A stretch of DNA of 64,000 bases, taken from contig OX387607.1 of the NCBI GenBank assembly GCA_947568835.1, forward strand, positions 16,295,701-16,359,700, written 5' to 3'. Under the pieces are notes generated by a model. It was not told the origin of the DNA and did not search any database. It saw only the letters and a list, made by a program, of their open reading frames with translations. Shown here in pieces: positions 2,795 through 64,000 of the stretch; positions within the stretch are counted from its first letter, which is position 1, and each line of letters begins with the position of its first letter. Source of the DNA: Protonemura montana (lineage: Eukaryota > Arthropoda > Insecta > Plecoptera > Nemouridae). A program made the position numbers and the translations under genes.

Positions 2795-4528
2795 TCACTC
2801 AAACTTTAAGCGCTCAGGTTCTTGAGCTGCATACGCCAATTGATGAGCATCCTGAAAGCTCCTCTGGTAAGGACCTCCCCAACCAGAGGAAGACGAGGAG
2901 GATTGGTAAGCGGTCTCGGCGGGACCAGAGTAAGTGTGCGAGTGTCCATGTTCTGGACTCATCTTACTTCTGTACAGGAGGAACGCCCCGATTCCCAAAG
3001 CGATTTTCGCGAGAATCACGGCTTTGAGTGCGATTTTACCGACAAAAAGCAAGCCCAGCTTAGAGACCAGCGCGGTCAGGTATGCTTTGCCGGCCAACAA
3101 GAGCGGGATTATCCTTCTGAAGACTCTCCTCCGTAAGTTTCCTGAGTGACCAGGCCTGAGAACGGCCGGCACTCTCTGTCGGCCTGGAACAGGAAGTTGA
3201 TTTGCCGATTAGATTTGATATTTGAAGCTATTAAAAAAAAAAAAAAGTCTTGTTTACTTTTTTAAGTGTCATGAGCCTGCATCTTATTGCAAAACTTTAT
3301 AGAAATTATGCTGTATTTGCAAAATAATTTTACATGAGAAGGAAATTATCTTTAAAAGCGGTTATCTGCTTAAAAATGCAGTCCAGTGTTTCCATTTTTT
3401 TTGTGTAATTTTCCGAAGGTGTCTCGATTTTATAAAGATTTTCATGATTTTCACTCTAATTTTCTTTTAGGAAAATCGACGACATTAGACCAGTGCTACA
3501 GAGCCCTGTTATCAAAACAGTGCGTCGTTAAACGCTACATATAAATCCAAGAATAATCCGCAACATTTAGCCCGTCTTAGCGATATCCTTGGTACATCAA
3601 TATCAAAAGCGAGATGCTTGTGTTAGGCGCCGGAAATGCGTCTACCTTGAAAACAATTATGCAAATCATGTTAAATGAACCAAAGCGTGATGCACACTCA
3701 TTTTTTGCGCGGCTTTGTTTTCAGAACCCGGCTGGTGAACGCAATCTCAAGTTCTAGGTGAAAGTACCCGGCGTTGAAAGTAATCCTTTGCCTCGTTGGA
3801 TGACTCTACCTTTGCCATTGACCATGAGCTCGGGCGGATACGTTCTTTCAATTGATTCTCAATTAATCAACGAAATCGAAATCATCAATGAAACTTTTTA
3901 ATGTCATTGACTTTATTATTACCTAATAAACTACAGATTTTAACCAACAAAGACACTTATTTGCATTAGAGAAGGATTTTTACTGAGAAGCTACAAAATA
4001 CGTTTTTAGTAAAACTTGAAATGGTAAATCAATTCACTGACAAAGTTTTCATTGTATTTACACGTTTGGTTGTTTAAATAAAAGCTCCTTACCTTCTTCC
4101 AAAGATTCCTGCACTGACTCTGGCATCTTCAATTCCAAGTAATGCGTCTTGAAAAATCTCGACACTGACTCGGCGATCAGGTCCAGGATTCTGTAAGCTT
4201 TCCCATCTGGAGAAGTCTCAACATCGGACTCGATCTCGTTGTCAGTCATAGCTCTTCCCGACCGATCCACATTCCCAACCAACACAATACCGTCGTAGAT
4301 CTCAAAGTTCCCCATTCTTGAAGCTCTATCCAGATATCCAACCGCCTTGGCACCTAAACAAGCCACGACGTCCTGTTTATCACATTCACGGATCATTCTT
4401 GCAGCTGATGTCCAACCGTCTTCTTCTGGGACTTCCAAAACCTCATTACCCTCGACCAGAGGGGTGGGCGCTGCGAATACACAACCGATAAATAACACTG
4501 CGCTTAACACTGCTATAGAAAAAGCCAT
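2795..4528 (-). CDS. Gene 2: Osiris family protein (DUF1676), 2 exons, 274 aa
   Basis: Exon 1 is 4528-4093 and exon 2 is 3183-2795. The donor is GAAG/GTAAGG and the acceptor is CTGTTCCAG/GC, in phase 1, and the joined frame is 825 nt including the stop. Residues 1-19 form a signal peptide. The two-cysteine segment is C49-x7-C57 (ECDKQDVVACLG) and is followed by A-V-G-Y-L-D-R-A, the family's typical K-A-x-x-x-x-D-R-A pattern. A central domain ending in R-F-F-K-T-H-Y-L-E-L-K runs to about residue 140. Exon 2 opens GRQRVPAV, then has a basic patch and a long Leu/Ala/Lys hydrophobic stretch (about 170-212). The tail is Ser/Gly-rich and contains A-H-Q-L-A-Y-A-A-Q, the family's AQxLAY-like C-terminal motif. 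In insects such proteins are secretory or endosomal membrane proteins linked to cuticle and tracheal formation. The intron holds a fragment of the local SINE. Confidence 0.93.
3475..3550 (+). mobile_element. 3' fragment of the 5S-derived SINE in the gene 2 intron
   Basis: The stretch beginning GACATTAGACCAGTGCTACA and ending in GTGCGTCGTTAAACGCTAC matches the 3' ends of the full copies at about 58.0 and 61.6 kb. Only the tail is present, in antisense orientation to gene 2. Confidence 0.8.
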
Positions 4529-9018: not shown

Positions 9019-9172
9019 GTTTTTAGACTCATGTCTACTTGATTTATCCTTAGCACTAGTTTTAAGAAAAACTATTTCAACTGGGTTTTAAATGCTAAGT
9101 AAAGGGCTACTAAATTTCGAAATTTAGTAGCCCTTTACTTAGCATTCAAAACCCAGTTCAAATAGTTTTTCT
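9019..9172. mobile_element. Family A inverted-repeat element
   Basis: Starts GTTTTTAGACTCATGTCTAC. An inner arm (ACTATTTCAACTGGGTTTTA ... TAAGTAAAGGGC) is followed at once by its inverted copy (GCCCTTTACTTAGCATTCAA), so the copy folds into a near-perfect hairpin. No coding capacity. Confidence 0.8.
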
Positions 9173-13914: not shown

Positions 13915-14041
13915 CAGTCTAGCTTTCCTTCCATTCATCGTTTGCTGGTTTCAGCTTTCAAAAACTGAAACCCCTGCAATATCAAAAGTATCCAGAATTT
14001 GTATATTTGATTGATTGACTCATATGAGGTGTGAAATGAAA

Positions 14042-14747
14042 AACAGATTTTGATAGCGGATCTTGCATGGCGCTGATCTAATGGCGTAGTTCATGATGAT
14101 GAACCTGGAATAGCCTAGAAGGGAGGAGGGGAAACCCGGTGCCGGCACGTAGCCTACTCCTGTCGAAGACTAAGGGGACCACCGGCTTAACGTCCCTTCC
14201 GAAGGACGGTACAACGCGAACAACAGGATTCCTCCACAAATCCATGCTGTCGAAAGGTTGATAAGCAAGGCGAGTGAAGTTGCTGTACTAACTTTCATCC
14301 CTCCAACCTCTCTCCCAAACAGAACTGGTCATGTCTATGATGGTCACCCATCCAATACCTGACCCAGCGCAGTGTTGCTTAACTTTCATCCCTCCAACCT
14401 CTCTCCCGAACAGAACTGGTCATGTGTATGATGGTCACCCATCCAATACCTGACCCAGCGCAGTGTTGCTTAACTTTCATCCCTCCAACCTCTCTCCCGA
14501 ACAGAACTGGTCATGTGTATGATGGTCACCCATCCAATACCCGACCCAGCGCAGTGTTGCTTAACTTTCATCCCTCCAACCTCTCTCCCGAACAGAACTG
14601 GTCATGTGTATGATGGTCACCCATCCAATACCTGACCCAGCGCAGTGTTGCTTAACTTTCATCCATCCAACCTCTCTCCCGAACAGAACTGGTCATGTGT
14701 ATGATGGTCACCCATCCAATACCCGACCCAGCGCAGTGTTGCTTGAA
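14042..14747 (-). mobile_element. 5S-derived SINE with five-unit array
   Basis: In minus orientation. From left to right it has the SINE 3' body (GCCGGCACGTAGCCTACTCC, CCACCGGCTTAACGTCCC, GGTTGATAAGCAAGGCGAGT) and then about five tandem 91-bp units. Each unit carries GGTCACCCATCCAATACC and CAGCGCAGTGTTGCTTAAC, the reverse of the 5S-like segment. The 5' 5S head (TCTCGTGAGATCACCGAAG) is absent here. Confidence 0.9.
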
Positions 14748-15888
14748 CTGAGAAACGTTGTGCCCGACAACAGCTTAAAGTGGTATCCAATCGAGTTTGA
14801 TTAATTTGTACTCTAATTAAAACGGTTCCCTATAGGTATAAATTTATCACACACAAATCTATAGATCCATATAAGGACGCATACAATTTGATTGAAATCT
14901 GTATCTTACCTGCTATTCTAATACGTGCATGCCTGCTGCTTTGCTCCCATAAATCTTTTAATTTTAATTAAAAATATACATTTTTGCTACTTTATTTTTG
15001 CCCTACGTATATGACAATATTTCAGAGAATGGTCACGTATTGATGCACATTCCTACGTTATCCAGTGCGTTTAATTTTTTTACCAAATCTACGTACACTT
15101 TTCATCAGATATATTTGCAATTACATCAGAGAAATTCAATTTAACGCTCGAGTGACTCCTCTCATCCGCGTTGCATCGATTTAATCAGATTAAACCGATA
15201 TCAAAAGAAGCTACGAGTGAAGAAACCGAGAGATGGAAAGCAATTTAATTTGATTTATACCCAAGTTTTAAACTGAATCTTAGTCACGTTTAGCAAATCG
15301 TTTCGAAGTGGCAAATTTAATGCGAATCAACCAAAAGCTAACCAAAAGTGTACGTTTGTGGATAAATGTGTCCCTGATTTTGTTAAGAGTCGACGATTTA
15401 TTATTGAAAAAGGTGCACCCAAGACACGTCGCGCGCTCTGTGGTAGGATCGGTAAACTCGGTGCACCCACAGCTGAAGGTCACGGTCGTGTATTTATTTC
15501 AGTGTGGATACAAAACGGCGGTGACGTCACAGTTGGCCTGAATTCCTAGCGGCTCTTGTATTTCTGAATGAAGCTCTGTTGGTTCACGCGAACGGCGCTG
15601 TTTTGGCGTGGCGCTGGTGTGCGATTTGAATTTATCGCTACTGAAACTGGAAGGCGGTGATAGAATTAATTCGTTAACGGTTTTTCATTTGTTCGCTTTG
15701 TATTGCAATGATTCGGAAAGTTTAAAAAACTCTAAATACAAATAAAAATCCATTTAAAACTTATAAGTTCAAGTAGATTACTTGGTTAGACTAACAACCG
15801 CGTAAGGTGGAGATTGGAATTCAAGTTCCCGTTTGGATATCAGTTTTTGAGAGGTTAATTGTGTTCCTAAATTATCTTCAAACATCAA
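14748..15888. other. Intergenic, no gene recognised
   Basis: AT-rich, with a somewhat more GC-balanced patch at 15420-15620. Two overlapping plus-strand open frames there (15308-15549) have no recognisable features. Confidence 0.45.
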
Positions 15889-16091: not shown

Positions 16092-16827
16092 ATTATATAT
16101 TCAAACATATTTTTGCTATATTGGCTCGTTTCACGCTACCAAAAGATGTTCCCTGCGTTTGAAATCTATGATATCAAGTCAAAATACGCTATGGTTCCTG
16201 ATTTCCCCATAAAATCCTTGCTTGATAGAGAAACAACCCGATGGAAACCATGACCGAGTCCATGAAAACTTGTAAACGAAACATCACTACACATAGTAGC
16301 AGGTGTTCAGAGTGAAACTATCACGGTTCAGGTACTACAAGGAAGTAATAACTTGTTTGATTTAAAACGACGCTCGTATGATATTTGCCATGTCAGAGCA
16401 ATCTAGTCTGTCGCTTGCTAGTGTTTGCTGTCGACACGGTGAGCGCTGTGATCGACAATGCATAGCGCTACAGAAGTTGTTACCTGGCGATAATGACTTA
16501 GTTCGTTGCTCTGGTTCGATTAAACAGCTGACGCTAGCGAGGTCTGGTCGACAGAAGGTGGGTTGCTATGTACCTCAATGTCATGGGATAACATGGCGAT
16601 TTGTTGCCATAGAAACGTCTGTCAATTGTGAAACAGATTGTCCTGGTATGCTAGTGATATCGATGCGATTTTGATAAAGCGTTGCTGTATATAGTTGATA
16701 AAATATACCTTTTACTTAACTAATATCTGAGACTAGTTTCTCATAGCCTTTGAAAAAATACAAAAATACAGGCATAGCAAAAATTAAATATATAAACATA
16801 TTTTTTTGGTGAGATCATAGAAATTTA

Positions 16828-17365
16828 GGAACACTGCGCTGGGTCAGGTATTGGATGGGTGACAATCTTACACATGACCAGTTCTGTTCGGGAGAGAGGT
16901 TGGAGGGATGAAAGTTGAGCAACACTGCGCTGGGTCAGTTATTGGATGGGTGACCATCATACACATGACCAGTTCTGTTCGGGAGAGAGGTTGGAGGGAT
17001 GAAAGCTAAGCAACACTGCGCTGGGTCAGGTATTGGATGGGTGACCATCATACACATGACCAGTTCTGTTCGGGAGAGAGGTTGGAGGGATGCAAGTTAA
17101 GCAACACTGTGCTGGGTCAGGTATTGGATGGGTGACCATCATACACATGACCAGTTCTGTTCGGGAGAGAGGTTGGAAGGATGAAAGTTAAGCAGTACTG
17201 CGCTGAGTCAGGTATTGGATGGGTGAGCACCGAACAGTTTGGTGTGTTGGAAACACCGGTCCTCGTGAGATCACCGAAGTTAAGCAACACTGCGCTGGGT
17301 TAGGTATTGGATGGGTGACCGTCATTCTCATGTCTAGTTCCGTTTGTAAGAGAGGTTGGAAGGAT
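16828..17365 (+). mobile_element. 5S-derived SINE, array followed by head
   Basis: About five 91-bp units (AACACTGCGCTGGGTCAGG, ATTGGATGGGTGACCATCAT, CAGTTCTGTTCGGGAGAGAG) precede a 5S-like head at 17226-17310 (GTTGGAAACACCGGTCCTCG, TGAGATCACCGAAGTTAAGC). The order differs from other copies, where the head comes first, and the 3' body is missing. This looks like a rearranged or tandemly inserted copy. Confidence 0.85.
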
Positions 17366-29920: not shown

Positions 29921-32900
29921 ATGGCGCTAAAGTTTGCGGTTTTCGTGTGTTTTTTGGCGTTGATTTCTTTCTCAAGTTCGAATCACGTCCAGGATGAGAC
30001 TGTTCAGGATCAGGGAGCTGGATCAGGGCTTAATTTGATCCTGAAAGTGATTGAAAGCTGTGAGAAACATAAGGATACTGCAAAATGTCTTAAGTTAAAG
30101 GCGCTCAAGTTTGTGGATAGAGCGATTAGTACCGATGAGATCTCAGTGATGGCCGGGGTTTCGATGGTACAAAGTGGGCAAGTTGCTAATCGTTCACATG
30201 ATGAAGTTGCTTATGAAGGGAGAGACTTCGGCGAGGTGCTAGTGGAGAGGGTGGCGAAGTTCTTTGAATCACACGCCCTGCAAGTGAATGTCAGCAAATT
30301 GACCGATGGAAGCTTCTTGCAAGAAGGTAAGTCGCCAAGGATTTTCTAATAAAGTTGTAACTAACTTAGGAAAATACATTTCAAATAAGGAAATCTTAGT
30401 TGGAATTGCAAATGCTTGAAATGGGCAAAGTATTTTAATATACATAATATGATATTTATATAATTTGATGATAAAATAAATACAATTAGGATGAAATATG
30501 ATTTAAATTGCAAACGCTTACAATGCGCGGGGTATTTTCTTATTTTTCAACACTACAACCGTCCCAAAAATTGATGTCCCCGTTTGGTCATCAATTTTTG
30601 AGACGGTTATAGTGTTGATAATAATAAAATAAATACAATATTTGTGGATGATATTGTATGATAAAAAAATGGAAGTAATTGTTAAATTCGTTTCTAACAT
30701 TTTCACAAACTCACCACATCCTCATAATTAAAGGCGAAAATAAACAAAACACAGAATTAAAAATCACTGGATTCTCTTCCCACCAACTTCACTCGCCTTG
30801 CTTATCAACCTCTCGACACCAACTTCACTCGCCTTGCTTATCAACCTCTCGACAGCAACTCCACTCGCCTTGCTTATCAAACTCTCGACAGCAACTTCAC
30901 TCGCCTTGCTTATCAACCTCTAGACAGTAACTTCACTCGCCTTGCTTATCAACCTCTCGACAGCAACTTCACTCGCCTTGCTTATCAACCTCTCGACAGC
31001 AACTTCACTCGCCTTGCTTATCAAACTCTCGACAGCATGGATTTGTGGAGGAATCCTGTTGTTCGCGTTGTGCCGTCCTTCGGAAAGGACGTTAAGCCGG
31101 TGGTCACATTGGTCTTCGACAAGAGTAGGCTACGTACCGGTCTCGGGTTTCCCTTCCCTTTTAAGCTAGGTTAGGTTCATCATCAACCTCATCATTATCC
31201 ACTAATTTACCGACGTCATAAGACCAGTGCAGCATGACCAGATATCAAAACACCACGTATCCCTTCAATAACATGCACTTTTTTTTAGGGCGTGGCAAAA
31301 AGAAGAAGATGATGGCACCCATTATGTTAGGTGTCATGTGGAAGGCCGGTCTTATCGCCCTTTCACTCAAAGCCATCGCCCTTTTGGCGGGCAAAGCGTT
31401 GCTGGTGGCAAACGTTGCAATGGTGCTTGCCGTGGTGCTTGGTCTTAAAGCACTGGTCGGCGATCAGCACCACGAGAAGGTAATATCTTAGAGCAAGTAA
31501 CCTTAGTAACCTTAGCGATCTTAGCGACCTTAGCAACCTTAGCAACCTTAGCAACCTTAGCAACCTTAGCGATCTTAGCGACCTTAGCAACCTTAGCAAC
31601 CTTAGCAACCTTAGCAACCTTAGCAACCTTAGTAACCTTAGCAAAAGTGACACATTCCTAGGCCAAGAGGTGAACTACGATAAGTTATTGAAAGGTGATT
31701 ATTATTATATGTGTTGTTGAGGATGAATGTTTTGTTGGTTCAGTTACTGACCAGACCCATAACACTATAGATAGAATTAATTATTAACTGGAAAAATCAG
31801 CTTTTTTAAATTATAAAAGTGCTATGGAGCTCACACCTATGCTGGTTGTGAGATAGATAGGGCATTGCCGGCAAAGCTTCAAATTAAAAAGGACAAGAAA
31901 TTTAAAAGTTTGCTCAAGGAATTTCTAATAGAAAATGTTTTTTTTCCTGTAAAAGATTTTTTAATGTGTCGGGCAGAGACAATTGCCCAAAAAAAATGTA
32001 AATATAGTAGATTTATTGTTTAACTGTTGTTTTTATGTAAATACTTTGAACTTTCCAAATTGCTCGATGTGTTTAAACGGAATAAAACACTATTATTATT
32101 ATTAATATTGTAATTATTATTATTATTATTATTCTGTAAAAAGAAATGGTTATTATTTAAATGATTGTGAACGACACACATTTCTTGCTTCTTTGAAGTG
32201 TAGTTCAGCTTTAGATTATTTATCTGTTGCATCTGGCAATAAAATGCCTCGAAGTCACAAGAAAGAATTAAAATCTTGACTTGTCTTGATGCTATTTGCA
32301 TTGGTGTTACCCATGAAAAGCAGAAAAAAACACAATAAATTTACAAAATAATTGCAGAAAAACAAGAAAATATATATAAGTTTTTTTCCCATAACAAGGA
32401 ACTGTACTTTGTTTTTAGCAAACTGATAGTGAACTGGTTTGGCAAGCAATGTACCGATCAAAACAAAGAAACGACATTTCAAGTTTGTAAATAATTCATA
32501 TATTCTTTGAAATATATTCATAAAGTCTCCCCTCAAAACCAATGGTATGCTAATTTTGTACCAGTGACCTGCACTGCCCATGACTTCTTCATCTTCTATA
32601 GAAGGTTGTGTGGCCTAATTGAGATCGGTCATTCGTGTGGAAAATACATTTATTTCAAGGCATGGCTGGCAGAATTAATTTCTTACCAGTTTCAATTCGG
32701 TATTTCTTGGAATTCTGGAAGCCGAGCAATAATTTTCTATAAATTATTGTTTTTTCGTTGTTTGAGTTCAGAAGTTGCACTGGAATTATATGGAATTATC
32801 TGGAATTATCTGGAATTATCTGGAATTATCTGGAATAACTGAATATGAAAATCAGAGCGATGCTGTTTTACTGTTTTCTGTTTTCAATTGTTAAGTCTAC

Positions 32901-34457: not shown

Positions 34458-34489
34458 ATTATTATTATTATTATCTATAGTGTTTAACA

Positions 34490-35080
34490 TAGCACTGTTT
34501 TGATATCTGGCCTTGCGGCACTGGTCTAATGGCGTCCATGAATGAGTGGATGATGATGATGAACCTAACCTAGCCTAGAAGAGAGGAGGGGAAACCTGGT
34601 GCCGGCACGTAGCCTACTCCTGTCGAAGACCAAGGGGACCACCGGCTTAACGTTCCTTCCAAAGGACGGTACAACGCGAACAACAGGATTCCTCCACAAA
34701 TTCATGCTGTCGAGAGGTTGATAAGCAAGGCGAGTGAAGTTGCTGTACTAACTTTCATCCCTCCAACCTCTCTCCCGAACAGAACTGGTCATGTGTATGA
34801 TGGTCACCCATGCAATACTTGACCCAGCGCAGTGTTGCTTAACTTTCATCCCTCCAACCTCTCTCCCGAACAGAACTGGTCATATGTATGATGGTCACCC
34901 ATCCAATACCTGACCCAGCGCAGTGTTGCTTAACTTTCATCCCTCCAACCTCTCTCCCGAACAGAACTGGTCGTGTGTATAATGTCACCCATCCAATACC
35001 TGACTCAGCGCAGTGTTGCTTAACTTCGGTGATCTCACGAGAACCGGTGTTTCCAACACGTCAAACCATTCGGTTGCAGA
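34490..35080 (-). mobile_element. 5S-derived SINE, near complete
   Basis: Minus orientation. It contains the 3' end (GTTTTGATATCTGGCCTTGC), the body (CCACCGGCTTAACGTTCC), three 91-bp units and the 5S head at the right (TTCGGTGATCTCACGAGAAC, CGGTGTTTCCAACACG). It lies directly behind the stop codon of gene 5 and may supply its 3' UTR. Confidence 0.9.
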
Positions 35081-35919: not shown

Positions 35920-36344
35920 TTAGGATGAAATCTAACGCTTGCAAACGCTTGCAATGCGCGGGATATTTTATTATTATCAACACTAGAACCGTCTCAAAAA
36001 TTGATGCTCAAACGGGGACTCAAACCCAGATCTCCACCTGTCGCGGGTGTTGCTCTGAAGCATTGAGCTACTTGAACCCCGATCTCCACCTGTCGCGGGT
36101 GTTGCTCTAACCAATTGAGTTACATGGACCCCGATCTCCACCTGTCGCGGGTGTTGGTCTAACCAATTGAGCTACTTGGACCCCGATCTCCACCTGTCGC
36201 GGGTGTTGCTCTAACTAATTGAGCTATCTAGACACTGGTTTTTAGATACGATTTTAGTCTATTTGATATTTGATGAGAATGACAGTTCTCCAAGGTGTAG
36301 AACCATCAATTTTTGAGACGGTTATAGTGTTGCTAATAATAAAA
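35920..36344. mobile_element. Family B element carrying tRNA-like multimer
   Basis: Flanked by the 12-bp direct repeat AAGCGAGTTGAG (35908-35919 and 36345-36356), a clear target-site duplication. The head TTAGGATGAAATC and the arm CAACACTAGAACCGTCTC are on the left; the arm CATCAATTTTTGAGACGG is on the right. Between them lies about 300 bp with four tRNA-like units. Confidence 0.85.
36007..36235 (-). other. Four tandem tRNA-like units inside family B
   Basis: On the minus strand each 52-bp unit reads TAGCTCAATTGGTTAGAGCA (D-arm and A box), CACCCGCGACAGGTGGAGAT (anticodon-like arm) and GGGGT. Only the last unit continues into a T-arm, here G-G-G-T-T-T-G-A-G-T-C-C-C-C. Position 33 is not T in the apparent anticodon loop, so I treat the units as tRNA-derived and not functional. 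Units differ by point changes. Confidence 0.65.
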
Positions 36345-38427: not shown

Positions 38428-39740
38428 TAGGTCATAGCAACGGTAGCTACGTGTTGCTTAGCAACGGTAGCTACGTGTAGCTTAGCAACGGTAGCTACGT
38501 TGAGCTTAGCAACGGTAGCTACGTGTTGCTTAGCAACGGTAGCTACGTGTAGCTTAGCAATGGTAGCTACGTGTAGCTTAGCAACGGTAGCTACGTGTAG
38601 CTTAGCAACGTTAGCTACGTGTAGCTTAGCAACGGTAGCTACGTTGAGCTTAGCAACGGTAGCTACGTAGCTTAGCAACGTTAGCTACGTGTAGCTTAGC
38701 AACGTTAGCTACGTGTAGCTTAGCAACGGTAGCTACGTTGAGCTTAGCAACGGTAGCTACGTGTAACTTAGCAACGGTAGCTAAGTGTAGCTTAGCAACG
38801 GTAGCTACGTGTAGCTTAGCAACAGTAGCTACGTGTAGCTTAGCAACGGTAGCTACGTGTAGCTTAGCAACGGTAGCTACGTGGAGCTTAGCAACGGTAG
38901 CTACGTGTAGCTTAGCAACGGTAGCTACGTAGCTTAGCAACGGTAGCTACGTAGCTTAGCAACGGTAGCTACGTAGCTTAGCAACGGTAGCTACGTAGCT
39001 TAGCAACGGTAGCTACGTGGAGCTTAGCAACGGTAGCTACGTGTAGCTTAGCAACGGTAGCTACGTGTAGCTTAGCAACGGTAGCTACGTAGCTTAGCAA
39101 CGGTAGCTACGTAGCTTAGCAACGGTAGCTACGTTGAGCTTAGCAACGGTAGCTACGTGTAGCTTAGCAACGGTAGCTACGTGTAGCTTAGCAACGGTAG
39201 CTACGTGTAGCTTAGCAACGGTAGCTACGTTGAGCTTAGCAACGGTAGCTACGTAGCTTAGCAACGGTAGCTACGTAGCTTAGCAACGGTAGCTACGTGT
39301 AGCTAAGCAACGGTAGCTACGTGTAGCTTAGCAACGGTAGCTACGTGTTGCTTAGCAACGGTAGCTACGTGTAGCTTAGCAACGGTAGCTACGTGTTGCT
39401 TAGCAACGGTAGCTACGTGTAGCTTAGCAACGGTAGCTACGTGTAGCTTAGCAACGGTAGCTACGTGTAGCTTAGCAACGGTAGCTACGTGTTGCTTAGC
39501 AACGGTAGCTACGTGTAGCTTAGCAACGGTAGCTACGTGTTGCTTAGCAACGGTAGCTACGTGTAGCTTAGCAACGGTAGCTACGTGTAGCTTAGCAACG
39601 GTAGCTACGTTGAGCTTAGCAACGGTAGCTACGTAGCTTAGCAACGGTAGCTACGTAGCCTAGCAACGGTAGCTACGTGTAGCTAAGCAACGGTAGCTAC
39701 GTTGAGCTTAGCAACGGTAGCTACGTTGAGCTTAGCAACT
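38428..39740. repeat. Palindrome-bearing satellite, 22-25 bp units
   Basis: The core unit CTTAGCAACGGTAGCTACGT is followed by a variable joint of 0-4 bases (GTAG, TGAG, GTTG or AG). GTAGCTAC is a perfect palindrome in nearly every unit. The joint types come in blocks, such as the long-joint blocks near 38.45-38.65 and 39.3-39.6 kb, so larger segments have been copied. Open frames over the 24-bp units (V-A-T-V-A-K-L-H) are by-products. Confidence 0.95.
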
Positions 39741-52108: not shown

Positions 52109-52592
52109 GGCACCGAACGGCAACAATGCGCTGGGTCAGGTATTGGATGGGTGACCATCATACACATGACCAGTTCTGTTCGGGAGAGAGGTTGGACGGA
52201 TGAAAGTTAAGCAACACTGCGCTGGGCCAGGTATTGGATGGGTGACCATCATACACATGACCAGTTCTGTTCGGGAGAGAGGTTGGAGCGATGAAAGTTA
52301 GTACAGCAACTTCACTCGCCTTGCTTATCAACCTCTCGACAGCATGGATTTGAGGAGGAATCCTGCTGTTCGAGTTGTACCGTCCTTCGGAAGGGACGTT
52401 AAGCCGTTCGTCCCCTTGGTCTTCGACAGGAGTAGGCTACGTGCCGACACCGGGTTTTCCCTCCTCCCTTCTTGGCTAGGTTAGGTTCATCATCATCCTC
52501 ATCATCGTCCACTCATTCACCGACGCCATTAGACCAGTGCCGCATGACCAGATGTCAAAAAAATGCGTCGTTAAACACCACAAATAAATAAA
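52109..52592 (+). mobile_element. 5S-derived SINE with short array
   Basis: Begins GGCACCGAACGGCAACAATG, which joins the first bases of the head directly to the array, so most of the 5S head is deleted. Two 91-bp units, the 36-bp segment, the body (GGGACGTTAAGCCGTTCGTC) and the 3' end with ACCACAAATAAATAAATG follow. Confidence 0.9.
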
Positions 52593-53139: not shown

Positions 53140-55989
53140 TTACCTTCGCCCGAAAGGGTTTGGGAAAAACGAATGATCACTGTCTTGATTTTTCAAGGAA
53201 CTCGATTCATAGGGGTCGTGGTAATAGGAAGACTCGCTCACCGAGGACGTCCCATAAGGATCACTATAACCGGAACCTTTCAGAGAATTTGGCAAACCTG
53301 CGTACGCGTTTTCAACCTTAACATCCTGCCTCCGCTCCCACTTTTCTTCGTCGCTATACGGCTTGGCAAAGACGACACTAGTTTTCCCATGAGATCTGTG
53401 ACCACCTCCTTGCGATAGTTTGACGAGCACCCCAAGTAGTGCTACGATCAAAGAGATCTTACTCAACAATATCGCCTTGCTTGCCAAGCCGGCCAGCAAG
53501 AAGAACATTGCCATCATCTTAAACTTGCTAAGAACCATCAGGAGTGGGATCAGAAACTTGATCTTCTTCTTCTTTTTCAATGCGACAATCGCGGTGTGTC
53601 CGTGGATCTTGTGCTTGTGGAATTTCTTCTTGTGTTTGTGCAGCTTCTTGTGACCTGCAACAAAATCAGTTTAATACCAGAGTGACCTCGGGCGAAGAAA
53701 ATACCGTCCATATTATTATTATGAACACTATAACCGTTGAGTGTAGGTTCTAGGTAGAGAAACAACGTCAATGTTACAGTCTCTGCGTGAAAGATGGCCG
53801 CCAAATGACTGCCTTACCGACAAAAATGCAGAGTACCGGAACATCACGTTAAGTGGAGCCACTGTCGTATGAAATTTAATTTCGATATTTCTCGTAGGTT
53901 GACTCGCTTTTGAGACTTTTCATGCTCAAAAAATGTCATCAATGTTTACCTCAACGATTGATATACACTTAAAGATATTATCAAAATTAAATTTCATACG
54001 ACAGTGGCTCCACTTAACGTGATGTTCCGGTACTCTGCATTTTTGTCGGTAAGGTAGTCATTTGGCGGCTATCTTACAAGATGGGACTATAACATTGACA
54101 TTGTGCCTCTACCTATAGCCTACACTCAACGCCATAACCATTTCAAAAATTGATGCCCAAACGAGGACACAATTTTTGATATGGTTATAGTGTTGATAAT
54201 ATTAAAATACCCCGCGCATTGCAAGCGTTTGCAATTTTAAATACAGATTTCATCTAAAAACCGTCCATGTTTACCGCTTGCTTGTGGTGCTGCATCATAT
54301 TGTACATACTGCACTGGTGCAGCCTGTGCGGCCCCCGAGTGTCCTCCGCCCAACACTACGCTTTGCTGTTGTTGCTGTTGTTGGTTGTTATTGTTGTTGT
54401 TGTGGTGGTGGTGTCCCTTGCTATCTAGATTCGTCGTAGAAAGAAATCAGTCAATTTCGAGTCGTCAGTTCAGAACTGGTCACAGTCAGCTATAATGTCA
54501 TTCGTGTCGGTTGTGCATGGGGACAATGGATTGAAATACAAGTCGCAACAATCATTTGAAGGTAGTGCAATACCGATCAAACTCACTGTGAATGCTGATA
54601 GTTTAATTTCCTAGCTGCCCCAATCACATCTCACCATCGCTTTCAAAACCTTGATGTACAATTAATCATTTTGTTCTCACCAATGACATCAACTGTAACA
54701 GTTCCCCTATTTTCACCATCGGCTAATTCTTCTTCTTCTTCATCTTCTTCATCTTCTTCTTCATCATCATCATCGTCATCATCGTCATCATCGTCGTCAT
54801 CGTCTTCTTCCTGATCTCGAACTAAATCATCGTCATCATCTTCGTCATCAAAATCATCATCATCATCGATATCGTTGTCGTCTCCGTCTCCTGGATAGCC
54901 CAAGACGTCTTCGAGTCCGCCAACAGTCCTTCCCTTAGCAACAGCTTCCGTGACTTCTTCGGCAACATTCTTAGCCACAGCGTCCGCCAAAGTGGTGATG
55001 AAATTGTCTTTCAAAAAACGCGGGGCATAATCGTATGACTCTTTACCATCGTCCCGTCTTCTTTTAAATACCCAAGCAGCCCGCGATGAAACACATTTCA
55101 TCATTCCTTGCGACCAATGGTAACGCAAGCAATAATACATTTCATACAGAGCAGAAAAAAACTGTTCAGTAACTCCTCTTACAGTTTCCATGATAATTTG
55201 CTTGCTTGCCGTGTGATCCTCTTGGCTAAAGACAAATTCTTTCTCCGGAAGAGGTCTGAATTTGTTAGAATCTTCACCCGTCACCTTTTGCCCGCCGTCT
55301 TCGTCAACGTCAACAACAACTGAAGAATGATCGTTATCATCTTCAATTGGTTTTGCAGAATATTGAGACTTATTCGCAAGAATGCTATGAAACGCAGAAG
55401 CGTTATACCGATCGTCTGAATTTTTGCTAAGAAAGTCCGCATGAAACGATTGAACGTTTGGCGCGTCCATTTTGTGATTAGCAAACCGTGTTTCGTACCC
55501 TCGCGTTGTTGAACCGACGATTGAAGTCTGATCTGTGTCCACTCTTCGGCTGAGAAGTTTTGTGTTGACTTCGTTCACCTTGGCTGTCACTTCTTCAGTC
55601 ATTTTATCGACCGTCCTGTAGTTGTCCTTCGCCTTGAAACTCAACATCTTGTGGTTAGGAAACCGATAGTTGACAGCATTATTTCTTGGGGTCACTTCGG
55701 TGGTCGTTACCACTTTACTGAGCCGAACTTTGCGGCTGATTTCGTCGATAGTCAATCTATTTGCATTTTTATTAATCTGGCTTCTCGCTAGTTTCGGCCA
55801 GACAGGGTTTTGAATCGGTGTCCAATCGCTCCTGCTGTACTGAGAATTGAAAGCGGCTGGCTTATTGGCTAACACGAAATTAACTCTGTTCACAACGTCG
55901 CTAGACGTAATATTTTTTACAGCCAGAATAATATCACTTAAAAACAATACAAAAATAAATACCACCAAACTGTTAGCGATTCTCTCCAT
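53140..55989 (-). CDS. Gene 8: large Osiris family protein with acidic extension, 3 exons, 657 aa
   Basis: Exons are 55989-54681, 54424-54275 and 53654-53140. Junctions: ATTG/GTGAGA to AATCTAG/AT, and AGCG/GTAAAC to GTTGCAG/GT, all phase 1. The middle exon is exactly 150 nt. The signal peptide is residues 1-23. A long Asn/Lys/Ser-rich region without known domain (24-270) is followed by C287-x11-C299 in an aromatic stretch (M-Y-Y-C-L-R-Y-H-W), then T-L-A-D-A-V-A-K-N-V-A-E-E-V. An Asp/Glu tract covers about 368-422. The middle exon encodes S-K-G-H-H-H-H, six Asn, six Gln and a Gly/Ala/Gln tail. Exon 3 opens G-H-K-K-L-H-K-H-K-K-K (His/Lys-rich), then the hydrophobic segment at about 518-563 and a Ser/Tyr tail. 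It is more than twice the usual family length of about 250-300 residues. The Osiris call rests on the exon plan, signal peptide, cysteine pair and hydrophobic exon. Confidence 0.85.
53718..54255. mobile_element. Family B element interrupted by the foldback element
   Basis: In reverse orientation. The left part is ATTATTATGAACACTATAACCG. The right part is AACCATTTCAAAAATTGATG, its inverse, then CCCCGCGCATTGCAAGCG and the head AGATTTCATC. The foldback element splits the first arm. The element lies in gene 8 intron 2, close to the donor of the 150-nt exon. Confidence 0.75.
53735..54130. mobile_element. Foldback element in gene 8 intron 2
   Basis: The left arm begins TTGAGTGTAGGTTCTAGGTA and contains CAGAGTACCGGAACATCACG and AGTGGAGCCACTGTCGTATG. 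The right arm carries the inverse (CATACGACAGTGGCTCCACT, CGTGATGTTCCGGTACTCTG) and ends TATAGCCTACACTCAA. The arms are about 155 bp and the loop about 90 bp. It interrupts a family B element. No coding capacity. Confidence 0.9.
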
Positions 55990-56699: not shown

Positions 56700-59600
56700 C
56701 TACCGGGTCTTCTCCCGTTTCTCCCAAGCGAAATTCCTGTGGACATCCAGACTCTCGGTTTCGGCGTTGTCCCTCGGGGCGTTTACTCCCCTGAACATTT
56801 GGTGCCCGGATCGGAATCCAAAGTTGCTCAAAAAGCTGCCCTCGTTTTCAAATACTTCAGGTCCTTTATACGTTGAAATCGGCGGCTCGTGGATCGGGGA
56901 TCCGAACCCGGGACCTCCGACTCCGTGATGAGGCTGTAAAACCACACACCGGTCCTCGTGAGATCACCGAAGTTAAGCAACACTGCGCTGGGTCAGGTAT
57001 TGGATGGGTGACCGTCACACACATGACCAGTTCTGTTCGGGAGAGAGGTTGGAGGGATGAAAGTTAAGCAACACTGCGCTGGGTCAGGTATTGGTTGGGT
57101 GACCATCATAAACATGACCAGTTCTGTTCGGGAGAGAGGTTGGAGGTATGAAAGTTAAGTAACACTGCGCAGGGTCAGGTATCGGTTGGGTGACCATCAT
57201 ACACATGACCAGTTCTGTTCGGGAGAGAGGTTGGAGGGATGAAAGTTAAGCCACACTGCGCTGGGTCAGGTATTGGATGGGTGACCGTCACACACATGAC
57301 CAGTTCTGTTCGGGAGAGAGGTTGGAGGGATGAAAGTTAAGCCACACCGCGCTGGGTCAGGTATTGGATGGGTGACCATCATACACATGACCAGTTCTGT
57401 TCGGGAGAGAGGCTGGAGGGATGAAAGTTAAGCAACACTGCGCTGGGTCAGGTATTGGATGGCTGACCATCATACACATGACCAGTTCTGTTCGGGAGAG
57501 AGGTTGAAGTGATGAAAGTTAAGCAACACTGCGCTGGGTCAGGTATTGGATGGGTGACCATCATACACATGACCAGTTCTGTTCGGGAGAGAGGTTGGAG
57601 GGATGAAAGTTAAGCAACACTGCGCTGGGTCAGGTATTGGATGGGTGACCGTCACACACATGACCAGTTCTGTTCGGGAGAGAGGTTGGAGGGATGAAAG
57701 TTAAGCCACACTGCGCTGGGTCAGGTATTGAATGGGTGACAATCATACACATGACCAGTTCTGTTCAGGAGAGAGGTTGGAGGGATGAAAGTTAGTACAG
57801 CAACTTCACTCGCCTTGCTTATCAACCTCTCGACAGCATGGATTTGTGGAGGAATCGTGTTGTTCGCGTTGTACCGTCCTTCGGAAGGGACGTTAAGCCG
57901 GTGGTCCCCTTGATCTTCGACAGGAGTAGGCTACGTGCCAGCACCGGGTTTCCCCTCCTTTCTTCTAAGCTAGATTAGGTTCATCATATCATCCACTCAT
58001 TCATCGACGCCATTAGACCAGTGCCGCATGACCAGATATCAAAACAGTGCGTCGTTAAACAACACAAATCAATCAATTTAATATGTGACAAGTCACTAAA
58101 AAAGCTATAAAACACTGTTTCCTAAAAATATATAAAACAAAGTATATTTTGATAGTCATAATTTTTCAAAACAATTCTTTTTGCCCGGTCGGCAACGGAA
58201 TGTACTTTTGTAGAAAGATTGTTTATTAACTTACCCTGTTTGGAAAGCCATAATAGGAGCTGATGCCTAGCAACCCAGAAATCACCATGGCAACCTTGCT
58301 AATGATAAAAGCCTTCTTTGCAATCAGGATCAGCGCCCCTAGGATCAGTGGCACCAAGGTGACCAGGGGCAGTTTGAACCCCAACAGCAAGGGCAGCAGC
58401 ACTTGTCTGGCGATCAAACGACCTGCAAAAACAAAATGGCGACGTTTTTTTATGTGGAAATACAGGAACTTGCTAACGCAGATCACAATATTGCGTCAGT
58501 TGTAAAATATTTCTAGATGCCTGTGAGTTAGGCAACTTTAAATGCATTGGTGATACGCGGGTGGTATCATTTGAAATGGCAGGCGGAGTAGGATGCCCGT
58601 TAGGATCAGAATTTCCTGACCAATCTTGTAGCATTGCTGGTTTTCGTTGAAGCATTTTAAGAAGATGATTTTCATTAATTTACAATGATTTGGTTACATC
58701 AATATTAAATTATCTTTATGGTTAGGGTTTCAAATTTTACTTTAAATGAATGATTAAAAAAAAAATCATAATATTTATGATTGTTTTTAGACTCATGTCT
58801 ACTTGATTTATCCTTAGCACTAGTTTTAACAAAAACTATCTGAACTGGATTTTGAATGCTAAGTAAAGAGCTACTAAATCTCCCTACATAATTTCCCTGT
58901 ATAACATAATATTTCTGTTTAGAAGTAAACATTTCTGACCTGAGATCTAAAGGAGTTTGATTTTTTAGCAAATTCGCTATTAAAAAACATAGCTACTGCA
59001 GTTAAACCGATTCCCGCCTTCACGTGCAGCTAAAATGTACTTTTATCGAGTGTTTTTAAAAAGTCTTTCACCCATAAAGCACCATTATATGCCCGATAAA
59101 TCTAGATTAATGCGATTATCTTTGCTGAAATTAATTGCTATTGCAGTTAAAATTCACAGCTTTTTAATCAAAGATCCGCGAGTAATTTAAGTGAATTTTA
59201 GTCTTATGAACCGCGCGAAAAGTTGATTCTATTTTCCACATCTAAAATCAGATTAAACGCGCGATAAAAGCTGCCGAACACCGAACTGATTTCACCCAAT
59301 TTACCTGAACAAATTCAATTCTATTTTCTTTATTTTGTAAAACACATATACTCAGGAAGTGAAATAATATAAGGTTAACTAGCAGTACCCGCTGCCTAAC
59401 GGCCGCTTACGATTTTGAGGGAGTTGGCATTTTGGTTTAAATGGGACCACAACCAAAAGTACCATGCAATACCATACAGTAACCCCATTTATTTTATTTG
59501 AAATTTGCCGCTTATGTCACTCGGGGTCACTGCATTGTGGAAACTCTGTGAATTCCAAAGTGACCACGATGACAATTTCGAAAACAAACGACGTTGGCTG

Positions 59601-62029
59601 TCAAAAGATTTCCGTGCATGATAAAACCGTTGATAAAACCAATTGTCAATAAAATTTAAATAATAATACTAATAATATGATATATTATTAATGAAATAGA
59701 ATAAGCTAGAGCGACCGAATTATTTTCCTGTCAAAGCGACGTGTCGAACTGCTATTGAGATGTGTTGAAAATGTTTCTCTGGATTTGACCTGAACTAGTA
59801 GAGGCTCGAGACAATTTCCTCATTCCCCAGTCAAGCTAATCTGTTTTATGAAGCGGCCGGTGGCACTATACGAAGGTAGTTTTGTAGTCGACTCTGCAAT
59901 ATCGATTTTATAACAAACTCAAAGATGCTTTATTAGTTCGATGCCAATATAATTATCTAGAGCGCGCATTCCGCGGCCCATCAACGTCATAATTATTTTT
60001 TCTAGGCTGTTTTTTTTCTCTGCCAACAATTCTTAGAAGATAGAATTTAATCCTTCGTGTATTTCTCAGATCGTTCTTACCTCCAATAATTACAAAATCG
60101 AACCAGATGTAATGAGATGAAACAAGTAAAATCAAGTATCGTTATTTCAAATACCACTCTATAAAACTCGGAAGTATTTTATTATTATCAACACTATAAC
60201 CGTCTCAAAAATTGATGCTCAAACGGGGACTCGAACCCCGATCTCCACCTGTCGCGGGTGTTCCTCTAACCAATTGAGCTACTTGGACCCCGATCTCCAC
60301 CTGTCGTGGGTGTTGCTCTAACCAATTGAGCTACTTGGACCCCGATCTCCACCTGTCGCGGGTGTTGCTCTGAACCATTGAGCTTCTTGGACCCTGGCTT
60401 TTTGAGATGATTTTAGTGTATTTGATGAGAATGACAGTTCTCCAAAGAGTAGAAACAAGAGGCTGTGAATACTCACAGTCACTCTGATTCTAGTGACGCT
60501 ATAGCATTTCACAAGCTGTCAAACTCGAATAACTCCAATTTTACGTTGGATGCGTTTTATTTATATGAAATCTGATTTCAATTGCAAACGCTTGCAACTC
60601 CTACACTATTAGTGACGAGGACGCTTGATTCTGCTTGGGATGGAGATGCTCCCTCGGGATGACCAACCTGTTCCCGTGGCTCTGTCAGTGTAGGTCGGGT
60701 AGTGCCTGTCCATCACGAACTCGAGGACACCCGTCCCGTCCAGAGTTGGTCCAACCCTCATTACCAGCCCCGGGTGGAGCATAGACATATCGTATCTGTG
60801 AAAAACCAGACGATGAAGACCCACTGATCTCTAATAACCTGGATAGAGCATAGGATCCAGCCAGCTGATCTCAAATAACCTAAATAGAGCATAGGATCCA
60901 GCCAGCTGATCTCAAATAACCTGGATAGAGCATAGGATCCAGCCAGCTGATCTCAAATAACCTGGATAGAGCATAGGATCCAACCAGCTGATCTCAAATA
61001 ACCTGGATAGAGCATAGAATCCAGCCAGCTGATCTCAAATAACCAGGATAGAGCATAGGATCCAGCCAGCTGATCTCAAATAACCTGAATAGAGCATAGG
61101 ATCCAGCCAGCTGATCTCAAATAACCTGGATAGAGCATAGGATCCAGTCAGCTGATCTCAAATAACCTGGATAGAGCATAGGATCCAGCCAGCTAATCTC
61201 AAGTACCCTGGACCGAACGGTTTTGGCGTGTTGGAAACACCGGTTCTCGTGAGATCACCGAAGTTAAGCAACACTGCGCTGGGTCAGGTATTGGATGGGT
61301 GACCATCAAACACATGACCAGTTCTGTTCAGGAGAGAGGTTGGAGGGATGAAAGTTAGTACAGCAACTTCACTCGCCTTGCTTATCAACCTCTCGACAGC
61401 ATGGATTTGTGGAGGAATCCTGTTGTTCACGTTGTACCGTCCTTCGGAAGGGACGTTAAGCCGGTGGTCCCCTTGGTCTTCGACAGGACTAGGCTACGTG
61501 CCGGCACCGGGTTTCCCTTCCTCATTTTTAGGTTATGTTAGGTTCATCATCATCCACTCATTCACCGACGCCATTAGACCAGTGCCACATGGCCAGATAT
61601 CAAAACAGTGCGTCGTTAAACACTACAAATCAATTAGAATCAGAGCCCGGTATCTTACCTGAGCGATCTTTGCTTCATCAACATGGCTGCAGCATCCAAA
61701 ACACTTCTGAAGTCCATCGGGTTCATGTCCATGGGTATCACCATCCTCGGACTCTTGTCATTGGGGTCACGTTCTAAGACCACACCATCGCTGATGTCAA
61801 CTGCATCCAGATCAGATGCGTCAACAATTCCTGCCAAAGCACCCTTGTTAAAGCAAGGTAACAGAATGCTGGCTCCGGTATTCTCTCTAAGACAGCTCTG
61901 AAATGTCTCTGTGAAACCCATTATAGAATTGCTACCCTCTATGTAGGGCGTTGTAGGGTCCATTATAACTCCTACGCATGTCCCTAGGACGCCCACCACG
62001 CACAAAACACGCATTCTTGATAGAAACAT
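56700..62029 (-). CDS. Gene 9: Osiris family protein (DUF1676), 4 exons, 306 aa
   Basis: Exons are 62029-61659, 60795-60668, 58422-58235 and 56933-56700. Junctions: CTCAG/GTAAGA to TTCACAG/AT (phase 2), ACAG/GTTGGT to TTTTGCAG/GT (phase 1), AACAGG/GTAAGT to TTTTACAG/CC (phase 0). The phases agree at every joint and the total is 921 nt including the stop. The signal peptide is about residues 1-20. Cysteines are C46-x12-C59, and the core runs on through exon 2 (V-L-E-F-V-M-D-R-H-Y). Exon 3 opens G-R-L-I-A-R-Q and carries the hydrophobic segment (about 172-225). Exon 4 starts P-H-H-G-V-G-G-P-G-F-G, a basic/Gly tail without the AxxLAY motif. The donor GTTGGT is weak; without it, exon 2 would stop after I-K-R-P-R-H and the protein would lack the hydrophobic region. 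Introns hold a SINE, a 41-bp array, family A and family B elements. Confidence 0.78.
56944..58078 (+). mobile_element. 5S-derived SINE with nine-unit array in gene 9 intron 3
   Basis: Head ACACCGGTCCTCGTGAGATC and ACCGAAGTTAAGCAACACTG, about nine 91-bp units (to about 57790), the 36-bp segment, the body (GGAAGGGACGTTAAGCCGGT) and the 3' end CGTCGTTAAACAACACAAAT. The largest copy in the window. Its head begins about 10 bases from the exon 4 acceptor, in antisense orientation to the gene. Confidence 0.93.
58782..58882. mobile_element. Family A element, left part
   Basis: ATGATTGTTTTTAGACTCAT, TTATCCTTAGCACTAGTTTT, CTATCTGAACTGGATTTTGA and GTAAAGAGCTACTAAATC. The right arm is missing. It lies in gene 9 intron 2. 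Confidence 0.75.
58883..60174. other. Gene 9 intron 2, mostly unique sequence
   Basis: Contains copy 2 of the dispersed repeat (59378-59465). No nested gene recognised. Confidence 0.5.
59378..59465. repeat. Dispersed repeat, copy 2 of 2
   Basis: AACTAGCAGTACCCGCTGCC to GGCATTTTGGTTTAAATGGG and ACCACAACCAAAAGTACC. Matches 38204-38335 with an internal deletion. Confidence 0.75.
60175..60600. mobile_element. Family B element with tRNA-like multimer in gene 9 intron 2
   Basis: The left arm is TATCAACACTATAACCGTCT; then three tRNA-like units; then GATTTTAGTGTATTTGATGA and ATGACAGTTCTCCAAAG as in the copy at 36.2 kb. The right side is rearranged, and the head sequence (GAAATCTGATTTCAATTGCA, AACGCTTGCAAC) lies at about 60567-60600, next to the exon 2 end. 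Confidence 0.75.
60222..60400 (-). other. Three tandem tRNA-like units inside family B
   Basis: On the minus strand: GGTCCAAGTAGCTCAATTGG, TTAGAGCAACACCCGCGACA, GGTGGAGATCGG, repeated every 52 bp. The last unit has a perfect T-arm and pol III B box (CGGGGTTCGAGTCCCCG). D-arm and T-arm are intact in that unit, but the 3' acceptor strand and a normal T at position 33 are not seen. Confidence 0.7.
60822..61206. repeat. 41-bp satellite in gene 9 intron 1
   Basis: About nine copies of GATCTCAAATAACCTGGATA plus GAGCATAGGATCCAGCCAGCT. It begins about 25 bases from the exon 2 acceptor and ends where the neighbouring SINE starts. Confidence 0.92.
61208..61636 (+). mobile_element. 5S-derived SINE, most compact complete copy
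   Basis: Full head GACCGAACGGTTTTGGCGTG, TTGGAAACACCGGTTCTCG, AGATCACCGAAGTTAAGCAA, one 91-bp unit, one 36-bp segment, body and 3' end CGTCGTTAAACACTACAAAT. Length about 430 bp. This probably represents the basic element. It ends about 20 bases from the donor of gene 9 exon 1, in antisense orientation. Confidence 0.93.
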
Positions 62030-62107
62030 AGTCAAGTTAAACACACATAATATATTGAAAAAGTGGTATGGTTTTCAGACAAAAAGTGTTTGCAAGTTTG
62101 CTCGAGG

Positions 62108-63182: not shown

Positions 63183-64000
63183 GTGACCGAATGGTTTGTC
63201 ATGTTGGAAACACCGGTCTTCGTGAGATCACCGAAGTTAAGCAACACTGTGCTGGGTCAGGTATTGGATGGGTGACCATCATACACATGATCAGTTCTGT
63301 TCGGGAGAGAGGTTGGAGGTATGAAAAATAAGCAACACTGCGCTGAGTCAGGTATTGGATGGGTGACCGTCATACACATGACCAGTTCTGTTCGGGAGAG
63401 AGGTTGGAGGGATGAAAGTTAGGCAACACTGCGCTGGGTCAGGTATTGGATGGGTGACCATCATACACATGACCAGTTCTGTTCGGGAGAGAGGTTGGAG
63501 GGATGAAAGTTAAACAACACTGCGCTGGGTCAGGTATTGGATGGGTGACCATCATACACATGACCAGTTCTGTTTGGGAGAGAGGTTGGGGGTATGAAAG
63601 TTAAGCAACACTGCGCTGAGTCAGGTATTGGATGGGTGACCATCATACACATGACCAGTTCTGTTCGGGAGAGAGGTTGGAGGGATGAAAGTTAAACAAC
63701 ACTGCGCTGGGTCAGGTATTGGATGGGTGACCATCATACACATGACCAGTTCTGTTAGGGAGAGAGGTTGGAGAGATGAAAGTTAGTACAGCAACTTCAC
63801 TCGCCTTGCTTATCAACCTCTCGACTGCATGGATTTGTGGAGGAATCCTGTTGTTCGCGTTGTACCGTCCTTCGGAAGGGACGTTAAGCCGGTGGTCCCC
63901 TTGGTCTTCGACAGGAGTAGGCTACGTGCCGGCACCAGGTTTCCCCTCCTCCCTTCTAGACTAGGTTAGGTTCATCATCATCCACTCATTCACCGACGCC
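63183..64000 (+). mobile_element. 5S-derived SINE with six-unit array, cut by window edge
   Basis: Head GACCGAATGGTTTGTCATGT, TGGAAACACCGGTCTTCGTG and AGATCACCGAAGTTAAGCAA; about six 91-bp units; the 36-bp segment; the body GAAGGGACGTTAAGCCGGTG. The 3' end lies beyond the window. Confidence 0.93.

Follow-up and report, generated by a model that had tools for sequence, protein, structure and literature searches.

Tandem arrays of a 5S promoter-bearing unit in a probable SINE3-type retrotransposon family of the stonefly Protonemura montana

The window analysed here, 64,000 nucleotides of the stonefly Protonemura montana (assembly GCA_947568835.1, contig OX387607.1, positions 16,295,701 to 16,359,700, forward strand), lies in an Osiris gene cluster. 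Of the 44 matches in the genome to PF07898, which we take to be the Osiris family, 38 fall at C5:16.23-16.47 Mb, around the window, and one match corresponds to window positions 58262-58426 on the minus strand; the Osiris setting named in an earlier sequence-only reading of this DNA is thus correct at the level of the family. That reading also took 61208-61636 for a short interspersed element (SINE) derived from 5S rRNA, and the identification holds given an end-to-end Rfam match, alignment to the species' own 5S gene, a body and tail common to the copies, and target-site duplications (TSDs). In total, the window contains eight copies of the SINE and one isolated tail fragment. The earlier account did not mention that a 91-nt internal segment stands in tandem: six of the eight window copies carry 2-9 such units, and the 61208 copy on which it settled carries one. 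When element parts are mapped in the window and in stretches fetched from the window's own genome (258.48 Mb in 34 numbered contigs, C1, C5, C11 and so on; fetched stretches are labelled L with a number), the arrays are probably best understood as belonging to an insect SINE3-type retrotransposon family, whose multi-unit copies were in part retrotransposed and whose arrays then changed length according to chromosomal region.

The head of the element is derived from 5S rRNA and not from a tRNA. Rfam model RF00001, with a gathering score of 38 bits, matches 61213-61332 on the plus strand over its whole length (model positions 1-120) at 69.1 bits (E=1.8e-12), and it also exceeds the gathering score at 17229-17344 on the plus strand (53.4 bits), at 34956-35073 on the minus strand (52.7 bits) and at 63186-63306 on the plus strand (51.3 bits). 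The head strings that had been quoted at 17.2, 35.0, 56.9, 61.2 and 63.2 kb are all present; the 56.9 kb copy begins within the head (56946), is absent from the Rfam list and is 96.7% identical to the 61208 copy over 121 nt. Alignment of the 61213 head to one own 5S gene, the comparison that had been proposed as a check, gives 85.5% identity over 76 nt (5S nt 17-92, E=1.6e-22) and spans the A box, the intermediate element (IE) and the C box. Further, the first 44 nt of the unit consensus correspond to 5S nt 49-92 and are identical to the own 5S gene at 36 of 44 positions; with box limits from Xenopus 5S, this span presumably includes the A box, the IE and most of the C box. The 47 own 5S genes scored, the best of 52,711 first-look candidates, reach 108.7-117.5 bits, and the SINE heads seen reach 44-69. 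Two other origins of the head had been entertained beforehand, and neither materialised. The tRNA-like matches of the window sit elsewhere, at 36.0 kb (Rfam) and 60.2 kb (Rfam and ARAGORN), and no tRNA head was seen upstream of the body in the fetched copies; likewise, the variation among TSD sequences, the truncation at the 5' end and the tail of simple repeats are in keeping with a SINE and not with a DNA transposon. Folding of the head RNA was not significant (z -1.73, with 12 of 200 shuffles as good). As for the 5S genes themselves, those at C11:70-105743 recur on both strands with a period that is at first near 9.5 kb, in a stretch with many RVT_1 matches, possibly in linkage with a different repeat unit (rDNA or histone genes, for example).

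With one unit the element is about 430 nt long and consists of head (H), 91-nt unit (U), body (B) and tail (T). Genome-wide pattern searches allowing at most 2 mismatches found 5,457 heads, 33,779 unit cores, 25,995 unit-unit junctions (the AAGTTA pattern) and 9,268 unit-body junctions, the reversed controls giving 0 in each case; the body motif CTTCGGAAGGGACGTTAAGC occurs exactly 4,037 times and its reversed pattern 0 times. There is a preferred 5' end, since in 26 of 58 copies with head and body (window and fetched loci) the alignment starts exactly at ACCGAACGG, position 61212 here, as expected if the RNAs begin at a single site. Tails end in CACAAAT followed by (AAT)n, (AAAT)n or (AATC)n, and their final 45-70 nt are also found without a body at a few loci. 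TTTT is absent from both the unit consensus and the body consensus. No assignment of the body motif to a named SINE domain, such as Nin, Meta, Inv, Pln or Snail, was possible, a literature search with strings of this motif type returned no SINE work by title, and two exact patterns had 0 matches in viral contigs.

That these copies arose by retrotransposition is supported by their flanks. Among 68 tailed copies (including L014 and the duplicated L073/L074), words shared by the two flanks and adjoining the element amount to a TSD of at least 9 bp in 19, against 12 of 4,556 mismatched flank pairs, and of at least 11 bp in 14, against 1 of 4,556; among multi-unit copies, 8 of 25 have at least 9 bp. 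The 61208 copy itself has no clear TSD, its longest shared word being 4 bp. Empty sites are also available. L073 and L074 retain, uninterrupted and about 80% identical, the target of a 4-unit copy in L075 (TSD 14-15 bp), and reciprocally L073/L074 have a SINE of their own some 60 bp away that is missing from L075. All three loci moreover share another SINE, whose 5' end is the same in each and whose flanks are 89-91% identical, which implies that a segment was duplicated with one SINE inside and that new SINEs then landed in the duplicates. The duplicated segment has a core of about 2-2.7 kb with inverted SINE pairs and is found in L073, L074, L075 and part of L069 (C1 at 20.98, 22.42, 26.09 and 19.03 Mb, respectively); units of an unrelated tRNA-like element described below lie about 5 kb from two of these segments. 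Taken together, the 5S head, body, simple-repeat tail, TSDs and 5' truncation indicate that the copies arose by target-primed reverse transcription, the established mechanism in SINE biology. By structure the family belongs to SINE3, the 5S-headed class, with putative transcription by RNA polymerase III (pol III) and a putative partnership with a long interspersed element (LINE): its RNA would be transcribed from the 5S-type internal promoter, as the sequence suggests, and would be mobilised by a LINE with the same tail.

The 91-nt segment that is repeated starts at 5S nt 49, contains the 5S internal promoter, and stands in tandem in many copies, mostly in one phase. Junctions and ends suggest about 3.8 units per body-linked copy, a rough figure because the patterns differ in matching rate. 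Unit number in the fetched copies ranges from 1 to at least 13 (L014 set aside), and junction spacing at C1:62182-63909 implies about 20. In the single-unit 61208 copy the unit is flanked by GAAGTTAAGC and GAAAGTTAGT, so that the unit-unit junction is the product expected of exchange within AAGTTA; the first duplication may accordingly have come about when the AAGTTA repeats on either side of a lone unit slipped against each other or underwent unequal exchange. Other arrangements exist as well. At 1,807 junctions the C box end is followed directly by the precise 5' end of the element, an arrangement that in L024 forms a 92-nt array of the 5S part alone, and a 36-nt piece of the body is arrayed in one window copy (Table 1). 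In L014 (C1:273700-277900), a dense short-period array of unit pieces extends for about 1.4 kb upstream of the last unit.

Table 1. SINE copies and parts mapped in the window (H, head; U, 91-nt unit, with the number of units; B, body; T, tail)
Feature	Position	Strand	Basis
H U B T copy of the earlier sequence-only reading	61208-61640 (5' end 61212; 3' end about 61636)	+	Rfam 5S, 69.1 bits
5S rRNA-like head, to 5S nt 92	61212..61304	+	Rfam alignment, own 5S gene
91-nt unit, repeated in other copies	61261..61351	+	anatomy mapping, unit consensus
SINE body with CTTCGGAAGGGACGTTAAGCCGGTGGTCCC	61359..61544	+	anatomy mapping, genome-wide motif count
3' tail region, ends GTGCGTCGTTAAACACTACAAAT then simple repeat	61545..61640	+	anatomy mapping
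H U6 B copy, extends beyond window end (continues in L076)	63185..64000	+	
Truncated head, U9 B T copy	56946..58073	+	
U2 B T copy, headless	52120..52589	+	
H U3 B T copy, 11-bp TSD TCTACTCTGCA	34464..35074	-	
5'-truncated copy, 36-nt body piece in tandem about 7 times	30781..31252	+	
U4, partial unit, then H U; bodiless; rearranged, C box joined to element 5' end	16821..17365	+	
U5 B, partial tail	14022..14749	-	
Lone 3' tail fragment (86% to the tail of the SINE), not preceded by a body	3477..3546	+	

Were the arrays inserted as arrays? The copy in L017 bears on this directly. Its 14-bp TSD abuts unit position 53, after which come 7 full units, body and tail; given that a single-unit copy cut at this point would lack positions 1-52, the template RNA had at least two units. 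L017 therefore shows, for one copy and barring later gene conversion from another copy, that the inserted RNA held at least two units. The units themselves are nearly as divergent within copies (4.7%, 479 pairs) as between copies (5.3%, 13,216 pairs), and for 14 of 31 multi-unit copies the nearest relative of every unit lies in some other copy. Single-unit copies and arrays also differ at unit position 22, with A in 25 of 32 single-unit copies and G, as in the 5S gene, in 77 of 104 internal array units, and in body divergence, which is 4.2% for array copies (n=19) and 8.4% for single-unit copies (n=37, p=9e-5). Some multi-unit copies may then have acted as sources in their turn.

Arrays also change after insertion. 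The plus-strand copies of L073 and L074, which are one insertion in duplicated DNA, have 10 and 9 units and are identical unit by unit if unit 3 is skipped; within this array the block of units 2-5 is repeated as units 6-9, two of the four units showing one difference. In the SINE that L073, L074 and L075 have in common, the unit numbers are 13, 6 and 5. Both comparisons indicate length change by whole units after insertion, and for the one duplicated insertion of L073/L074 such a change by a whole unit is demonstrated. Array length is, further, strongly regional. The C1 sample consists of the first 60 listed exact places of the body motif, up to 20.7 Mb, with neighbouring copies, and comes finally to 60 rows; it is biased toward low divergence, and the lists of places may be incomplete, one search having given exact unit places absent from the list of another. 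The tests of region and age omit L014 for its short-period array, L032, L033, L058 and L061 for a body match below 150 nt (single-unit copies throughout, one of them at 1.76 Mb and the other three interior), three body fragments (L029 minus, L053 plus and L066 minus at 226), and L073-L075, which were chosen for holding pairs. Two or more units are found in 17 of 21 copies at 0-2 Mb and in 2 of 39 at 3-20.7 Mb (p=2e-9), or in 17 of 22 and 2 of 42 when the four single-unit copies are restored; among copies below 5% body divergence the counts are 11 of 14 and 1 of 4 (p=0.08). Hand counts agree in placing multi-unit copies at C1:0-2 Mb and beyond 20.9 Mb: the first 100 listed exact unit-unit junctions on C1 divide into 51 below 2.3 Mb, 8 at 2.3-20.9 Mb and 41 beyond 20.9 Mb, and the first 100 listed exact unit-body junctions into 15, 44 and 41. 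This concentration concerns C1, the contig sampled; the window lies 4.6 Mb from the end of C5. Arrays would, on this evidence, lengthen or shorten after insertion, and much more so in certain chromosome regions.

The regional effect is also an argument for treating the arrays as purely DNA-level minisatellites, in which a single unit was inserted and later grew locally by unequal exchange or replication slippage in prone regions, as in the SINE-derived satellites of reptiles. We consider this unlikely but far from negligible. The C1 contrast of 17/21 against 2/39 extends to more diverged copies, unit order is scarcely shared between unrelated copies, and whole-unit length change and the repeated 4-unit block are what local growth would leave behind; moreover, other phases and families are arrayed too (the 36-nt body piece, the 92-nt head and the 52-nt arrays of the tRNA-like element), and the window contains many unrelated minisatellites. 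However, L017 is hard to produce by local growth, and units nearly as divergent within as between copies and the 14 of 31 copies without an own-copy nearest unit speak against it as well. Several observations nevertheless weigh against partial retrotransposition of arrays within a SINE3-type family. L017 is a single case, with gene conversion from another copy a possible source; L014, L029 and L069 also start mid-unit before a full unit, L014 and L069 without a TSD and L029 outside the TSD test. A TSD of 9 bp or more is lacking in 49 of the 68 copies, and the 61208 copy holds TTTT runs. In 17 of 31 copies some units do have own-copy nearest relatives, up to about half of them (3.48 of 7 in L017, 3.17 of 6 in L028 minus), and beyond L073/L074 three or more rare variants recur between copies in just one consecutive pair of units (units 2-3 of L023 and units 2-3 of L031), so that shared unit order is a weak indication of common source arrays. 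Among copies with at least 5% body divergence, arrays occur in 6 of 7 at C1:0-2 Mb and in 1 of 35 at C1:3-20.7 Mb, and inside C1:0-2 Mb there is no correlation between unit number and body divergence (rho -0.23, p=0.31, n=21). Region consequently matters beyond age, and the apparent youth of array copies may largely be a contrast of region. Nor was a partner LINE found: a PF00078 search of the genome gave 150 scored matches, the 3' ends of two LINE groups (L077, L078) are unlike the SINE tail, and upstream of the tail-only loci L051, L070 and window 3477 inspection revealed no plus-strand LINE-like frame by the tail, frames having been listed for L070 and the window only and without a domain search. 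Finally, substitutions in array units are equally frequent in the promoter half (178/7,120) and the linker (194/7,750; 2.50% each), and in single-unit copies the respective figures are 6.0% and 7.5% (p=0.13). Such equality gives no sign of selection on the internal promoters, and it stands beside a more ambitious proposal, a multi-promoter SINE in which every 91-nt unit would function as a pol III promoter of the 5S type (TFIIIA-dependent), so that arrays would raise transcription or let it begin at several units and would have been favoured because they out-copy single-unit elements. This proposal is speculative and rather improbable; were it true, the unrelated tRNA-like element with its 52-nt promoter-part arrays would be a parallel case.

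Two further explanations are very improbable. Tandem 5S pseudogenes or a 5S-derived satellite would account for tandem units with 5S similarity, for the 1,807 junctions of C box to head and for the 92-nt 5S-only array of L024. Against such an origin, which we can hardly credit at all, are the dispersal of copies in both orientations, a body and tail with 9,268 unit-body junctions, and the gap between the scores of 5S genes (108.7-117.5 bits) and SINE heads (44-69); the TSDs and the empty site contradict it. Only marginally less implausible is a DNA transposon or composite element that carries the arrays and has the inverted pairs about 3 kb apart as its terminal inverted repeats. Inverted SINE pairs at C1:20.98, 22.42 and 26.09 Mb do flank related cores, and one SINE of each pair, with its flank, is common to all three loci, but the other SINE of the pair lies at different points in L075 and in L073/L074, with mutual empty sites, and bodies on both strands are present in just 3 of 56 other body-bearing C1 loci. 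Retrotransposition of a SINE3-type family with subsequent change in array length remains the probable explanation, and our conclusion for the arrays themselves is that both routes are at work, at least one having been inserted in array form, and arrays growing, persisting or shrinking according to region.

Insect SINEs with 5S heads have been described in HaSE3 of Helicoverpa armigera and are mentioned for Tribolium (PMC3272025); PxSE4 and PxSE5 of Plutella xylostella and relatives (4,415 and 1,952 copies, PMC8010984) and further lepidopteran families (PMC10886601) are similar. HaSE3 and PxSE4/PxSE5 resemble the present family in placing body and tail behind a 5S head that contains A box, IE and C box. 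The word 'tandem' occurs 0 times in the main texts of PMC3272025 and PMC8010984, and no promoter arrays are described there under that word. HaSE3 differs in that its body is shared with a tRNA-headed SINE, whereas the present body was seen without a tRNA head in the fetched copies, and in having an RTE partner that ends in TGA repeats, whereas the present tail closes with (AAT)n, (AAAT)n or (AATC)n. Closest to the arrays are the SINE-derived satellites (sSats) of squamate reptiles, which are tandem arrays from tRNA-related SINEs with a preference for chromosome ends (PMC10702118). Both consist of part-SINE units with the rest of the SINE at one end, at many loci, a feature of sSats that is found here. 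The reptile arrays reach up to 1000 units in homogeneous long loci (PMC10702118); those described here have a 5S promoter unit, are short (up to 13 units fetched, about 20 implied), often lie inside head/body/tail elements, and in one case were inserted multi-unit. Long homogenised arrays were not found, with no more than 13 units in the fetched copies and 4.7% against 5.3% unit divergence, any long arrays lying outside the sample. Dimeric SINEs, as mentioned in PMC10702118, are internally duplicated but have two parts, in contrast to the 1 to at least 13 units here. Ajax and Cassandra, terminal-repeat retrotransposons in miniature (TRIMs) with long terminal repeats (LTRs), are mobile elements with a 5S promoter part according to PMC10886601; they are LTR elements and Ajax has TSDs of 5 bp, unlike the present family, in which no LTRs were seen and clear TSDs measure 9-15 bp. 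No report of a 5S-headed SINE with promoter-part arrays was found in the open-access literature, a coverage that excludes most subscription journals and Repbase. Alu-derived minisatellites show internal duplication of SINE sequence, as here. Insect 5S SINEs and SINE-derived arrays are thus each known, and their combination appears to be a new variant.

The surroundings of the SINE copies are repeat-rich as well. The tRNA-like element, at 36023-36226 and 60235-60394 (both minus), has its own 52-nt tandem array of part of the tRNA and then a short tail that terminates in (AAT)n; ARAGORN reports a tRNA-Ser CGA at 60216-60288, the unit core of the element occurs 13,585 times genome-wide, and upstream of the 36-kb copy 41 nt match the tail of the element in inverted orientation. 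Large unrelated minisatellites occupy 27615-28685, 38435-39739, 1158-1903 and 60824-61212, with periods of 14, 24, 22/88 and 41 nt and up to about 76 copies. Long hairpins at 9078-9159 and 53846-54022 match Rfam microRNA models below gathering scores and might, at a guess, be inverted-repeat elements. With respect to the Osiris genes, the frame 61658-62032 on the minus strand opens with a signal-peptide-like stretch and resembles what we take to be a first Osiris exon; Pfam gave no Osiris match for it, and a holin match below cut-off only. If it is such an exon, the 61208 copy lies antisense in the first intron of that gene.

SINEs with 5S heads are few, and on a view cited in PMC8010984 a retroposed type-1 promoter remains silent or weak on account of its dependence on upstream signals. 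The present family, with a multiplied internal promoter region and thousands of copies, offers a way to test this view, since natural variation puts anything from 1 to at least 13 units on one and the same body in the fetched copies. More broadly, the family links two classes of repeat, in that an array has moved within a retrotransposon (L017) and arrays change length in the manner of minisatellites, with approximately 34,000 unit cores in a genome of 258 Mb.

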